Below are positions 9,986 to 64,000 of a DNA stretch of 64,000 nucleotides, piece after piece (the stretch's first letter is position 1; each line of letters begins with the position of its first letter). The stretch covers positions 1 to 64,000 of the forward strand of contig QHSL01000067.1 of NCBI GenBank assembly GCA_003220435.1, given 5' to 3'. This stretch comes from Candidatus Rokuibacteriota bacterium (GTDB lineage: Bacteria; Methylomirabilota; Methylomirabilia; Rokubacteriales; CSP1-6). Below the pieces are notes generated by a model that was given only the letters and a program-made list of their open reading frames with translations, ran no database searches and was not told the origin of the DNA. Both the position numbers and the translations under genes were made by a program.

Positions 9986-10909
9986 TTGCTGACGTTCGTC
10001 GTCCGCCGCCTCCTGCTCGCCGTGCCGGTCCTGCTCGGCGTGGTGTTCGTGGTCATGCTCACCATCGACCTGCTGCCGGGCGACGCGGTGACGCTGATGC
10101 TCGGCGAACACGCCACCAAGGACGCTGTCGCCAAGCTGCGCGAGCATCTCGGGCTCGACAAGCCGTTCCTCGTCCGGTACCTCGACTACGTGGGGCGGGT
10201 CGCCCGCGGCGACCTGGGGCGCTCGATCCAACAGAACCGCCCGGTGGCCGCCGAGCTGGCTGACGCGTGGCCGGCGACGCTCGAGCTGACGGTGGCCGCG
10301 CTGGTCATCGCCACCCTCGTCGGGATCGCGGCCGGCGTCGCCTCTGCGGTCCGGCCCAACTCGCTGTTCGACGGTCTGGCGCGGCTGGGCTCGCTCTTCG
10401 GGTTGTCGATGCCGATCTTCTGGACGGGCCTGGTCCTGATCGTCGTGTTCTCGCTGTGGCTCAACTGGCTCCCGGTGGGCGGCGCCGGCTCCCTCTCCCA
10501 TCTCGTGCTGCCGGCGGTGACGCTGGCGCTGCCGTCGGTGGCGATGATCGCGCGCATGACGCGCTCGGCCGTCCTCGACGTGCTGCGGGAAGACTACGTG
10601 CGCACCGCGCGCGCCAAAGGCGTGGGCGAGTTCTTGGTGCTGGCGCGGCACGCCCTGCGCAACGCCTTCATCCCGATCCTCACGCTGCTAGGCCTTCAAT
10701 CGGGCCAGCTCATGGGCGGCGCCGTCCTGACCGAAACGGTGTTCGCGTGGCCCGGGCTCGGCCGGCTGATGGTGAAGGCGATCTTCGCGCGCGACTACAT
10801 CCTGCTGCAGGGCGCGGTGCTGATCTTCGCGCTGGCCTTCGTCCTGATCAACCTGATCGTCGACCTCTCGTACGGTCTGCTCGACCCGCGGATCGGCCGC
10901 CAGGGATGA
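9986..10909 (+). CDS. ABC transporter permease, DppB type
   Basis: A 307-residue inner-membrane permease of the dipeptide/oligopeptide/nickel family. The N-terminus LTFVVRRLLLAVPVLLGVVF is the typical DppB opening, and the ATPase-docking EAA loop is visible as DYVRTARAKGVGEFLVLARH. About six membrane helices are expected. The start is a TTG at 9986, chosen because the conserved N-terminus begins there; no upstream ATG fits. It follows the binding-protein gene and its hairpins and is separated from the second permease by a tandem repeat. Confidence 0.9.
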   Translation: MLTFVVRRLLLAVPVLLGVVFVVMLTIDLLPGDAVTLMLGEHATKDAVAKLREHLGLDKPFLVRYLDYVGRVARGDLGRSIQQNRPVAAELADAWPATLELTVAALVIATLVGIAAGVASAVRPNSLFDGLARLGSLFGLSMPIFWTGLVLIVVFSLWLNWLPVGGAGSLSHLVLPAVTLALPSVAMIARMTRSAVLDVLREDYVRTARAKGVGEFLVLARHALRNAFIPILTLLGLQSGQLMGGAVLTETVFAWPGLGRLMVKAIFARDYILLQGAVLIFALAFVLINLIVDLSYGLLDPRIGRQG

Positions 10910-10919
10910 CCCCGGCCAC

Positions 10920-11057
10920 GACGGGTATCTGCCCGAACCTCGGGCGCCGGAGCCCTGCGCAGGCGCCCCGAGGGCAAGGCATGACCATGACAGATCTTTG
11001 CCCGACCGTCGGGCGCCGGAGCCCTGCGCAGGCGCCCCGACGGCAAATCTAATGAAC
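10920..11057. repeat. 69-bp tandem repeat with covarying hairpins
   Basis: Two copies (10920-10988 and 10989-11057) lie between the permease genes; the second runs into the first codons of the downstream gene. A core of about 30 bp is identical. Each copy folds into a hairpin with a bulged stem around a 13-base loop. One stem pair is C-G in copy 1 (10939 with 10972) and G-C in copy 2 (11008 with 11041), so pairing is kept despite the change. Confidence 0.85.
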
Positions 11058-60130: not shown

Positions 60131-60790
60131 CTAGCGCGCCCGACAGAGCGCCGCGAACGGTGCGGTCCAGCCGACGATTCCGCCCTGGGCGCGGATCATC
60201 TCGAGCGTGGCCTGCTTGAACTCCGGGAAATAGCTCTCGGTGGCGTCCTCGATCAGGAGGCAGTCGTAGCCGCGGTCGTTGGCCTCCCGCATCGTCGTCT
60301 GCACGCACACCTCCGTCGTCACGCCGGCCAGCAACAGGTGCGTGACACCCGCCTCACGAAGAATCGTCTCCAGCGGGGTCGCCCAGAAGGCCCCCTTGCC
60401 CGGCTTCACGATGACCGGCTCGCTCCCTTGAGGCCGGAGCTCGGGCACGATGTTGTTGCCCGGCTCGCCGTCGACCAGGATCCGCCCCATGGGGCCCACG
60501 TCACCGATCCGGAGCCGGGGCGCGCCGCGTCGCCGCTTGGCGGGCGGGCAATCGGCCAGATCCGGCCGATGTCCTTCGCGCGTGTGGAGGACGCGGATCC
60601 CGCGCCCGCGGCACCACGCGATGAGCTCGCGCACCGTGGGCACGATCGCGGCCAGCCGGCGCACGTCGTTGCCGAGCGCGTCTCCGAATCCGCCGGGCTC
60701 GATGAAGTCGCGCTGCATGTCGATCACGACGAGCGCGGTGGTGGCGGGGTCGAACGCATACGCGAACGGCGCGGCGGCGACCTCGAGCAT
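60131..60790 (-). CDS. Cysteine hydrolase (isochorismatase-like), probable triuret-hydrolase type
   Basis: A 219-residue amide hydrolase of the isochorismatase-like superfamily. The triad is complete: Asp24 in VVIDMQRDF, Lys132 in KPGKGAF and Cys162 in [17 protein letters not shown]. The [15 protein letters not shown] region, [10 protein letters not shown] and [10 protein letters not shown] resemble the triuret hydrolase (TrtA) group as I know it, which releases biuret. It lies eight bases after the ABC ATPase gene, in one transcript with a biuret-hydrolase-like gene upstream. A different carbamoyl or N-acyl substrate remains possible. Confidence 0.75.
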
Positions 60791-60797
60791 CGTGCCC

Positions 60798-62369
60798 TCA
60801 GGCGGCCGCTCCCGCGGCGTGGTGACCGGCCATGCACGGACCGATGACTGCGATGTCCGCGCTCGCGGCCGGCGTCTCGTGCACGATCCGTCCCCCGAAG
60901 ATGACCGCGAGCCGGTCGGAGAGCTCGAGCAGCTCGTCGAGGTCCTCGCTCACCAGGAGCACCGCGGCGCCGGCGTTGCGAGCCGCCACGACCCGGTCGT
61001 GGATCTCGGCCACCGCCGCGAAGTCGAGCCCGAACACGGGATTGGCCGCGATCAGCACCGACACCGCCTCCGACAGCTCGCGGGCCAGGACCGCGCGCTG
61101 GACGTTGCCACCCGACAACGTCGAGATGGGCGCGTCCGGCCCCTGAGTCTGCACCTTGAACTCGGCGATCCGGCGCTCGGCCTGGTCGCGCATCGAACCG
61201 CGTCGCAGCCACGGGCCCGAGGCGAGCGGCGCCCGGTCGAAGCTCCGGAGCGCCATGTTCTCGGCCACGCTCAACCCCGGAACGCACGCGTTCCGGAGCG
61301 GTTCCTCGGGCAGGCTCAGAACCCGGTGGTAGCGGATCTCGTTCCGCGTCGCGCGGTAGGGCTTGCCGTCGACGCGGATCTCGCCGGAGGCCGGCCGGCG
61401 CTGGCCGATGATCGCCTCGACCAGCTCACGCTGGCCGTTGCCGGAGACGCCCGCGATGCCGAGAATCTCGCCCGGCCGAACGGCCAGGGCCAGCCCGTTC
61501 ACGGCCGGCCGCCCGGCGTCGTCCTCGACGACCAAGTCGCGGACGACCAGCCGGGGCTCGACCGCCGCGCCCGCGCGGATGGCTCGTCCCGTGCGGGCCT
61601 GCGGGATCTGGCGTGTGCCCACCATCATCTCGGCGAGCATCGCCGGTGTCAGATCCGCCGTGCGGCCCTCGCCGGCCAGCGTGCCTCGGCGGAGCACCGA
61701 CACCGTGTCGGCGAACGCCAGCACCTCCCGGAACTTGTGCGTGATCATCAGCACGGTGACCTGGTGCCCGTGCGTCATCGCCCGCAGCATCCCGAGCACC
61801 TCGTCCGCCTCGGCCGGGGTGAGCACGGACGTCGGCTCGTCGAGGATCATGAAGCGACGCCTGAGATAGAGCTGCTTGACGATCTCGACCTTCTGCTTCT
61901 CACCGGCGGCCAGCCGCCACGCCGGCCGCTCGAGATCGAGCTTGAACGGCACCGTCGCCATGAAGGCGGCCAGCCGCTCGCGCTCCTGCCGCCAGCGCAC
62001 CACCGCCGGCACGTCGTCGCGCGCCATCACGAGGTTCTCGGCCACCGTCATGCTCGGCACCAGCGTGAAGTGCTGGTAGACCATCCCGATCCCCAGGGCA
62101 TGCGCGTCGTGCGGCGAACGGATCTCGCGCTCTCGCCGCGCGACCACGATCTGCCCGGCGTCGGGGGGGTAGTAACCGATGAGGCACTTGACCAGCGTGC
62201 TCTTTCCCGCCCCGTTCTCCCCCAGGAGCGCGTGGAACGAGCCGGCCGCCACGCGCAGGGACACGTCGTCGAGGGCGATCAGCGCGCCGAAGCGCTTGGT
62301 CATGCCGACGACCTCGACGTCGAGCGCTGGCGCCAGAACGGAGCCGTGCTCGCGGCCGTCGCCCGTCAT
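60798..62369 (-). CDS. Nucleoside/BMP-type ABC transporter ATPase (two domains)
   Basis: A 523-residue ATPase with two ABC domains, as in nucleoside and sugar importers that use BMP-family binding proteins. The first domain has Walker A GENGAGKS (50-57), the unusual signature [15 protein letters not shown] and Walker [14 protein letters not shown]. The second has the degenerate Walker [10 protein letters not shown] typical of this group, the signature [16 protein letters not shown] and Walker [13 protein letters not shown]. It pairs with the permease at the right edge. Genes for cysteine hydrolases overlap its 5' end by four bases and follow its 3' end by eight, linking transport with substrate breakdown. 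Confidence 0.9.
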
Positions 62370-63067
62370 GCGTGCCCGGCGACCGCGTCGACGAGAGCCG
62401 TGGATCGCGCCACCGCGCCGAACACCCCGCCCTGCATCGTGACCATCTTGATCGCCGCGAGGTGGTTGCCGTAGTCGGTGGCGCCGGCGCAGTCCTCGAG
62501 CAGCAGACACTCGAAGCCGCGGTCGTTCGCCTCGCGCATCGTGGTGTGCACGCACACGTCGGTCGTGATCCCGGTGAGCACGAGGTTCCGGATACCCCGC
62601 GTCCTCAGGATGAGCTCGAGATCGGTGGCACAGAACGAGCCCTTTCCGGGCTTGTCGATCACGGTCTCGCCCGGCGCGGGCGCCAGCTCCGGGATGATCT
62701 CCCAGCCCGGCTCGCCGCGGACCAGGATGCGCCCGCACGGCCCGGGGTCGCCGATGCCCGCGCCGATGCGGCGCGAGCGCCAGCGCTTGTTCGCGGGCAG
62801 GTCGGAGAGATCGACCCGGTGGCCCTCGCGGGTGTGGATCACCTCGAAGCCACCCGCCCGCATCGCGCGCAGCACCGTCTGGATCGGCGCGATCGGGGCA
62901 CGAGTCAGCGACAGATCGTAGCCCATCTTGTCGACGTAACCGCCGACGCCACAGAAGTCGGTCTGCATGTCGATGACCATCAGCGCCGTGTTCTCCGGCC
63001 GCAGGTCACCGTCATACGGCCACGGGTACGGCTCGGCCTTCACGAAGCACGTCGTCGTCGGTGCCAT
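62366..63067 (-). CDS. Cysteine hydrolase, biuret-hydrolase (BiuH) type
   Basis: A 233-residue isochorismatase-like hydrolase. The triad is Asp33 ([10 protein letters not shown]), Lys142 ([12 protein letters not shown]) and Cys172 ([17 protein letters not shown]). The N-terminus [10 protein letters not shown] and the segments [37 protein letters not shown] and [18 protein letters not shown] closely follow rhizobial biuret hydrolase as I remember it, an enzyme that releases allophanate and ammonia. The ATG at 63067 has an AGGAG site eight bases upstream; a longer start into the repeat was rejected. It is coupled to the ABC ATPase gene. Confidence 0.8.
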
Positions 63068-63085
63068 CGTTTCAACTCCTCTATT

Positions 63086-63144
63086 CATAGCTGCGCCTCG
63101 GCCGGCGGGGCCCCAGCCCCGCGACGGCCTGCGGCGCGCACTTC
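63086..63144. repeat. Dispersed repeat, copy B
   Basis: About 59 bp, nearly the same as copy A at 19550-19609, with the same CGGGGCCCCAGCCCCGCGACG core. It lies between the permease and biuret-hydrolase-like genes. Confidence 0.8.
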
Positions 63145-63148
63145 AACC

Positions 63149-63200
63149 ATCGCCGCGCCTCGGCCGGCGGCCCCGGCCCCGCCACGGGCACGCACTTCAG
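63149..63200. repeat. Dispersed repeat, copy C (degenerate)
   Basis: A second, shortened copy placed directly after copy B in the same orientation. It shares GCCGCGCCTCGGCCGGCGG and GCACGCACTTC-like ends but has lost part of the core. It overlaps the stop codon of the permease gene. Confidence 0.7.
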
Positions 63201-64000
63201 CGGTTGATGCTCAGCTCGCCCGGCGCCCCGGCCAGCGTGCGGCGGGGCGAGCACGTCGCGATCATGATCCCCAGCGTCACCACGTAGGGCGCGGCGTTGA
63301 ACAGATAGTAACCGGAGGTGATCCCGACCGACTGGAGCGCCGGCCCGACGGCGCCCGCGCCGCCGAAGAGCAGCGCTGCGTAGAAGCAGTGCATCGGGTT
63401 CCAGCGCGCGAAGATCACCAACGCGACCGCCATCAGCCCCTGGCCACTCGAGAGCCCTTCGCTCCAGCTCCCCGGATAGTAGAGCGAGAGGAACGAGCCA
63501 CCGACGCCGGCGAGGAATCCACCGACGCCGGTGCAGAGCGTTCGCATGCGCGGGACGGCGTAGCCCATCGCGCGCGCCGCGTCCGAGCTGTCGCCGACCA
63601 TTCGCACGATGAGCCCCCAGCGAGTGTTGCGGAAAGCCCAGCTGAGCGCCACCGCGAGCCCGATCCCGATGAGGAAGAGCGGGTTCACCTCGAGGGCGGC
63701 CTGAACCTGAGGCGATGCGCTCCAGCCGCCCAGCGGCATCGCCGGCAGCGTCGGCGCCTTGGGCTGCACGTAGGGCTTGCCCAGGAAAAACGCGAGGCCG
63801 GTGCCGAAGAGCATCAGTCCGATGCCGACCGCGATGTCGTTCACGCGCGGCAGGTTGCACACCAGGCCGTGCAGCAGGCCGAGGACCAGGCCGGCGGCGC
63901 CGGCGCCGAGGACGCCCAGCCATGGGTTGCCGGTGAGGTAAGACAGCGCGTAGCCGCTCATCGCGCCCATCACGAGAATGCCCTCGAGCCCGAGGTTGAT
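63197..64000 (-). CDS. BMP-type ABC transporter permease (cut by window edge)
   Basis: The C-terminal 267 residues of an inner-membrane permease of the BPD_transp_2 family (YufQ/NupQ-like), used by nucleoside and related importers. The frame stays open through the right edge, where it reads INLGLEGILVMGAMSGY, a conserved early segment of these permeases; an internal ATG at 63973 is therefore not the start. The EAA-like region is seen around ALSWAFRNTRWGLIVRMVGDSSDAARAMGY. It is the upstream gene of the hydrolase-ABC operon; a second permease and a binding protein are expected beyond the window. Confidence 0.9.
   Translation of the reverse strand: MNLGLEGILVMGAMSGYALSYLTGNPWLGVLGAGAAGLVLGLLHGLVCNLPRVNDIAVGIGLMLFGTGLAFFLGKPYVQPKAPTLPAMPLGGWSASPQVQAALEVNPLFLIGIGLAVALSWAFRNTRWGLIVRMVGDSSDAARAMGYAVPRMRTLCTGVGGFLAGVGGSFLSLYYPGSWSEGLSSGQGLMAVALVIFARWNPMHCFYAALLFGGAGAVGPALQSVGITSGYYLFNAAPYVVTLGIMIATCSPRRTLAGAPGELSINR

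Follow-up and report, generated by a model that had tools for sequence, protein, structure and literature searches.

A pathway of triuret and biuret breakdown that uses TrtA, BiuH and AtzF is described in Herbaspirillum sp. BH-1 and Rhizobium leguminosarum, and according to the available parts of that report the direct product of TrtA is carboxybiuret, which loses CO2 to give biuret (PMC7948467). Related gene clusters are reported in ammonia-oxidising bacteria, where trtA, biuH, trtB and atzF are collocated with bmpA-nupABC, and in comammox organisms, where the accessible passages list trtA, biuH and atzF with bmpA-nupABC, and no trtB (PMC12625717, mSystems 2025). A third point of comparison is the binding protein AtzT, from the atzRSTUVW genes of Pseudomonas sp. 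ADP, which is encoded beside a cyanuric-acid breakdown operon (PMC6834077; structures 6pi5, 6pi6 and 6pii). Here we describe a six-gene operon in the genome (5.4 Mb, 95.5% complete) of a soil bacterium of the Candidatus Rokuibacteriota. It is an ordinary member of a known and widespread nitrogen-scavenging operon, and very probably would import triuret or biuret, which are short oligomers of urea, and cut them for their nitrogen. The operon crosses the right end of the window, the whole 64,000-nucleotide stretch that was analysed, which makes up the first 64000 bases of contig C29 (86446 bases).

Gene content and the two hydrolases

All six genes are on the minus strand, in the order binding protein, permease, permease, biuH, ATPase, trtA:

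65192-66310, minus strand: BMP-family binding protein (PF02608) with a twin-arginine-type signal; outside the window
64120-65181, minus strand: permease 1 (PF02653); outside the window, read from the contig continuation (L007)
63197..64000, minus strand: permease 2 (PF02653, 121.8 bits); cut by the window edge, reaching 64123 on contig C29
62366..63088, minus strand: biuH, predicted biuret hydrolase, 240 amino acids, start more likely at 63067 (PF00857; NF050097; best PDB match 6azo)
60798..62369, minus strand: two-domain ABC ATPase of a BMP/nucleoside-type importer, 523 amino acids (PF00005 twice, as two ABC_tran stretches)
60131..60790, minus strand: trtA, predicted triuret hydrolase, an isochorismatase-like cysteine hydrolase of 219 amino acids (PF00857; best PDB match 6xix)

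The importer is complete, with a PF02608 binding protein, two PF02653 permeases and a two-domain ATPase. Open reading frames and domain matches confirm every gene named in a first-pass annotation of the window, which had described two hydrolases with complete Asp-Lys-Cys triads on either side of a two-domain ATPase with a permease upstream, and had looked to the genes past 64000 for a binding protein, which is indeed encoded there. The overlap it noted between biuH and the ATPase gene is real and amounts to 4 bases, but the gap between the ATPase gene and trtA is 7 bases and not eight. Permease 2 and biuH are separated by 108 to 129 bases depending on the biuH start, for which a GAGGAG motif upstream favours 63067; the other spacings in the operon are tight. 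Rfam scans of the window and of L007 gave 0 matches.

The two hydrolases fall into different clades of a 65-row tree, for which 25 of 80 TrtA loci were chosen, the duplicate, short or degenerate Rokubacterial rows L044, L046, L055 and L058 were omitted, and the rooting is unsure (a long outgroup branch is flagged). The 60131 protein lies inside the TrtA clade with 6xix and apart from BiuH (support 100/97), and the 62366 protein lies in the BiuH clade with 6azo (99/99). The former matches 6xix at 318.5 bits over residues 1-215, with 68% identity to this characterised Herbaspirillum TrtA, and the latter matches 6azo at 425.4 bits over residues 5-238, with 76% identity over 234 residues. Against the NCBIfam BiuH equivalog model NF050097 (cut-off 370 bits) the 62366 protein scores 425.6 bits, and the 60131 protein stays below the cut-off at 248 bits, as does its Herbaspirillum relative at locus L073 (261 bits).

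Thirteen positions diagnostic of TrtA or BiuH, comprising the triad, substrate-site residues and six discriminators, are given in the accessible text of PMC7948467. The 60131 protein is TrtA-like at 13/13: its triad (Asp24-Lys129-Cys162) and substrate-site residues E72, K132, F29 and Q202 are all of the TrtA type (7/7), as are the discriminators F35, N41, A134, E160, Y187 and I205 (6/6). The 62366 protein is BiuH-like at 13/13, as is 6azo, with the triad Asp40-Lys146-Cys179 (numbered from the first ATG) and Y, Y, S, D, T and V at the discriminating sites. The earlier comparisons of the 60131 protein with triuret hydrolase, and of the 62366 protein with rhizobial biuret hydrolase over nearly its full length, are borne out by both placement and residues, and triuret and biuret are well supported as the predicted substrates.

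Linkage of the importer to the hydrolases

Identical gene order is seen in four congeners (L044, L045, L047 and L048), and the closest operon found is that of another Candidatus Rokuibacteriota genome (L060), whose BMP protein is 94% identical. Among 80 TrtA loci, which are the best 80 of at least 571 relatives and are biased to close ones, a BMP gene is present in 58 and biuH in 61; at the 48 loci with full flanks the numbers are 44/48 for BMP, 43/48 for BiuH and 43/48 for both. A BMP neighbour would be expected by chance at about 1% of loci, an estimate based on the genus, whose genomes each have 1-4 PF02608 genes. Because the same order is present in four congeners, and BMP and BiuH occur together at 43 of the 48 loci, chance linkage is excluded. 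A survey of 95 genomes of the phylum, 16 of which have a match, places a BMP importer beside BiuH in all eight BiuH-type genomes (three of them in another gene order) and near TrtA in 6 of 13 TrtA-type genomes. These counts show how often the importer travels with both hydrolases, and the association is maintained across several phyla.

The operon also occurs at the Herbaspirillum locus L073 and on annotated plasmids of Rhizobium, Ideonella and Peteryoungia, and the position of the ATPase gene between biuH and trtA is shared by the four congeners and the three plasmids. The Rhizobium and Peteryoungia plasmid operons include a formamidase and a cupin gene, and the Ideonella plasmid carries atzF and hpxZ, the latter a member of the AtzH-like family. 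The first-pass annotation had considered a BMP-type importer for this chemistry to be undescribed, a claim that fails because PMC12625717, in the parts available, already reports trtA and biuH with bmpA-nupABC; the Herbaspirillum locus and the plasmid operons also speak against it. As in those ammonia-oxidiser and comammox Nitrospira clusters, both hydrolases lie beside a BMP-type ABC importer, whereas the phylum is different and neither trtB nor atzF is found beside the Rokubacterial operon. Relative to the Herbaspirillum and Rhizobium pathway (PMC7948467, as far as its accessible text goes), the clades, the catalytic and discriminating residues and the linkage are alike, but the host belongs to the Rokubacteria and no AtzF is found in its genome. 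The locus places a whole operon for triuret and biuret import and cleavage in uncultured Rokubacteria, and the interest lies in the ligand of the importer and in the last step of the pathway.

Among minor observations, the formamidase and cupin genes of the rhizobial form of the operon lie at L140:6725-7741 and 10662-11015. Four TrtA loci (L074, L080, L090 and L107) carry a distant BMP-type importer, whose permease 1 shows about 32-33% identity, and BiuH was not found in these stretches. A plasmid search gives a TrtA-like match, of no assigned subfamily, in 78 Escherichia plasmid records.

The binding protein and the transported ligand

The most probable scenario is that the secreted BMP-family protein binds triuret and/or biuret on the outer side of the cytoplasmic membrane and that the two permeases and the two-domain ATPase carry the ligand inward. 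TrtA would then release one ammonia from triuret, and the carboxybiuret so formed would decarboxylate to biuret either spontaneously or through some enzyme, and BiuH would remove a second ammonia to leave allophanate. The original proposal, uptake and then stepwise cleavage down to allophanate, remains the best reading, but needs amending in that carboxybiuret, and then biuret, follows the TrtA reaction (PMC7948467). Since no canonical AtzF was found in the genome, we infer the fate of the allophanate.

The nearest solved relative of the operon binding protein is AtzT (195.9 bits, 36-37% identity), and both have the BMP fold, a twin-arginine signal and an aromatic sandwich pocket. The L060 orthologue, modelled with AlphaFold2 (mean pLDDT 89.8), likewise has AtzT as its top structural match (TM 0.82/0.92). 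In the accessible description of AtzT, which binds guanine and 2-hydroxyatrazine, guanine is contacted by Ser97, Glu165, Asn218, Asn220 and the Phe98 backbone, and is sandwiched by Tyr45 and Trp194 (PMC6834077). The operon protein keeps the stacking Tyr and Trp and Ser97, but has Gln, His and Asp in place of Glu165, Asn218 and Asn220, so that these three guanine contacts are not found in it. The retained aromatic pair and Ser97 would suit a flat ligand. Glu165 is present in 0/74 BMP rows from TrtA/BiuH loci, where the residue is Gln in 54, Ser in 10, Thr in 4, Ala in 3, Phe in 2 and Pro in 1; these rows include the window protein, count two genomes twice, and contain the distant BMP class of L074, L080, L090 and L107. 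The operon BMPs differ from unlinked BMPs of the genus by the full set of Ser97, Gln165, Trp194, His218 and Asp220, and not at position 165 alone. The absence of Glu165 at the operon loci is weak evidence of the ligand, and it is from gene linkage first, and from the pocket second, that we infer triuret or biuret.

This assignment has to be weighed against the possibility, which we regard as unlikely, that the imported compound is a purine or a different ureide (for instance guanine, urate or oxalurate) and that the hydrolases act on breakdown products formed inside the cell and not on the compound taken up. The guanine binder AtzT is the nearest solved homologue of the binding protein (PMC6834077), the linked importer is annotated as a nucleoside transporter in the parts of PMC12625717 available, and genes for AllG and carbamate kinase are neighbours of a paralogous BMP importer in the same genome. 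However, no purine-breakdown gene is seen in the operon, Glu165 is missing from every BMP row of the TrtA/BiuH loci (although the same is true of BMPs of the genus outside such loci), and the importer and hydrolases stay linked across several phyla. It is far less probable still that the true substrate of the hydrolases is a similar compound such as guanylurea and not triuret and biuret: guanylurea hydrolases are reported to be up to 65% identical to enzymes of the family that include triuret and biuret hydrolases (PMC9800807, from the text available), but both proteins hold all the published residues that discriminate TrtA from BiuH, at 68% and 76% identity to their references, in a comparison that was made without a GuuH sequence.

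Several observations nevertheless weigh against a role in triuret and biuret use. Glu165 is also missing from BMPs at 11 places of the genus without linkage to these genes (Leu at nine, Phe at one and Asp at one), and positions 218 and 220 are already His and Asp in 3s99, which is modelled with adenine, so the pocket alone does not point to triuret or biuret; AtzT, the nearest solved binding protein, binds guanine. A close BMP gene is lacking at four of the 48 loci with full flanks, two of which (L080 and L090) carry a distantly related one, and 7 of the 13 TrtA-type genomes of the phylum have no such importer within the stretch examined. Finally, the genome yields no canonical AtzF (best match 228.5 bits against a cut-off of 511) and no AtzH-like decarboxylase (PF11533, 0 matches); as the genome is 95.5% complete, the absence of AtzF is not proven. 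In the open-access literature, as represented by listings, abstracts and passages, we found no test of the transporter ligand, and it may still be untested; a search for biuret together with the BMP family found nothing.

The paralogous importer lies on contig C63 (L170:1212-8150) between genes for AllG, an oxamate carbamoyltransferase subunit, and carbamate kinase, a neighbourhood that suggests use of oxalurate or a related ureide. In genome G062 (L046) the corresponding importer, with a BMP protein 78% identical, is near TrtA.

The end of the pathway

The allophanate hydrolase anticipated by the first-pass annotation was not recovered from the genome, where the AtzF profile stays below its cut-off and protein matches are to the amidase part: the best by E-value has 36% identity, and others have 38-42% over part of the amidase stretch. 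A complete Herbaspirillum-type triuret pathway is not seen in this genome, given that both AtzF and an AtzH-like decarboxylase went undetected; as we read the abstract and available text of the source paper, TrtB belongs to the AtzH-like family. A urease alpha subunit is found in the genome. Five Rokubacterial genomes give amidase-type matches to AtzF only (34-35%), and genomes reached through non-Rokubacterial TrtA loci have a full-length AtzF in 7/8 and the amidase part in 1/8 (counting L080, with the distant importer class). That AtzF is not detected in the Rokubacterial lineage is a small and checkable gap.

Two candidates were considered for the missing steps. The amidases of the genome were in part rejected as canonical AtzF, as a Tyr-x7-Arg pair present in 8/8 AtzF rows, which we take to bind the substrate, is missing in six of the seven examined from 20 amidase-like places, the seventh (on contig C14) being unaligned at the pair. 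The SDR gene upstream of the operon (L007:12242-13003) was ruled out as the pathway decarboxylase, as a glucose 1-dehydrogenase subfamily model matches it above the cut-off.

The C-terminal domain of AtzF is encoded in this genome as a stand-alone protein away from the operon, next to an ammonium transporter gene (PF00909):

Contig C69, L038:8330-9013: stand-alone AH_C domain protein (AtzF C-terminal domain; PF21986)

The domain is present in 12 of 15 genomes with TrtA or BiuH and in 9 of 80 others of the phylum (Fisher p 1.8e-7, ignoring relatedness). The 15 are the 16 matching genomes minus G080, whose protein does not have the TrtA/BiuH residues; they retain G058 and G066 (truncated or gapped) and G063 (degenerate, with unread stretches), the last scored as having no AH_C domain although tblastn gives a piece at a contig edge. 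The AH_C gene adjoins trtA at L046, L051 and L057, always on the opposite strand. An amidase-like gene lies 3' of it on the same strand at 7/23 places, three of these seven being in operon carriers (G048, G050 and G053); this is the fair count, as the eight stretches viewed closely were mostly preselected for an amidase. No amidase was seen adjoining the AH_C gene in this genome or in G051. Tentatively, and with more doubt than confidence, we suggest that in Rokubacteria the stand-alone AtzF-C homologue, with a separate amidase adjoining it in some genomes, may replace AtzF or the carboxybiuret decarboxylase. We know of no urea-oligomer pathway whose last step is split or recruited, though no literature search was aimed at this; if true, it would represent a new ending of the pathway. 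Relatives of the AH_C protein (65% and 74% identical) are also found near TrtA in a Leptolyngbyaceae (L098) and a Verrucomicrobiales (L127) genome.

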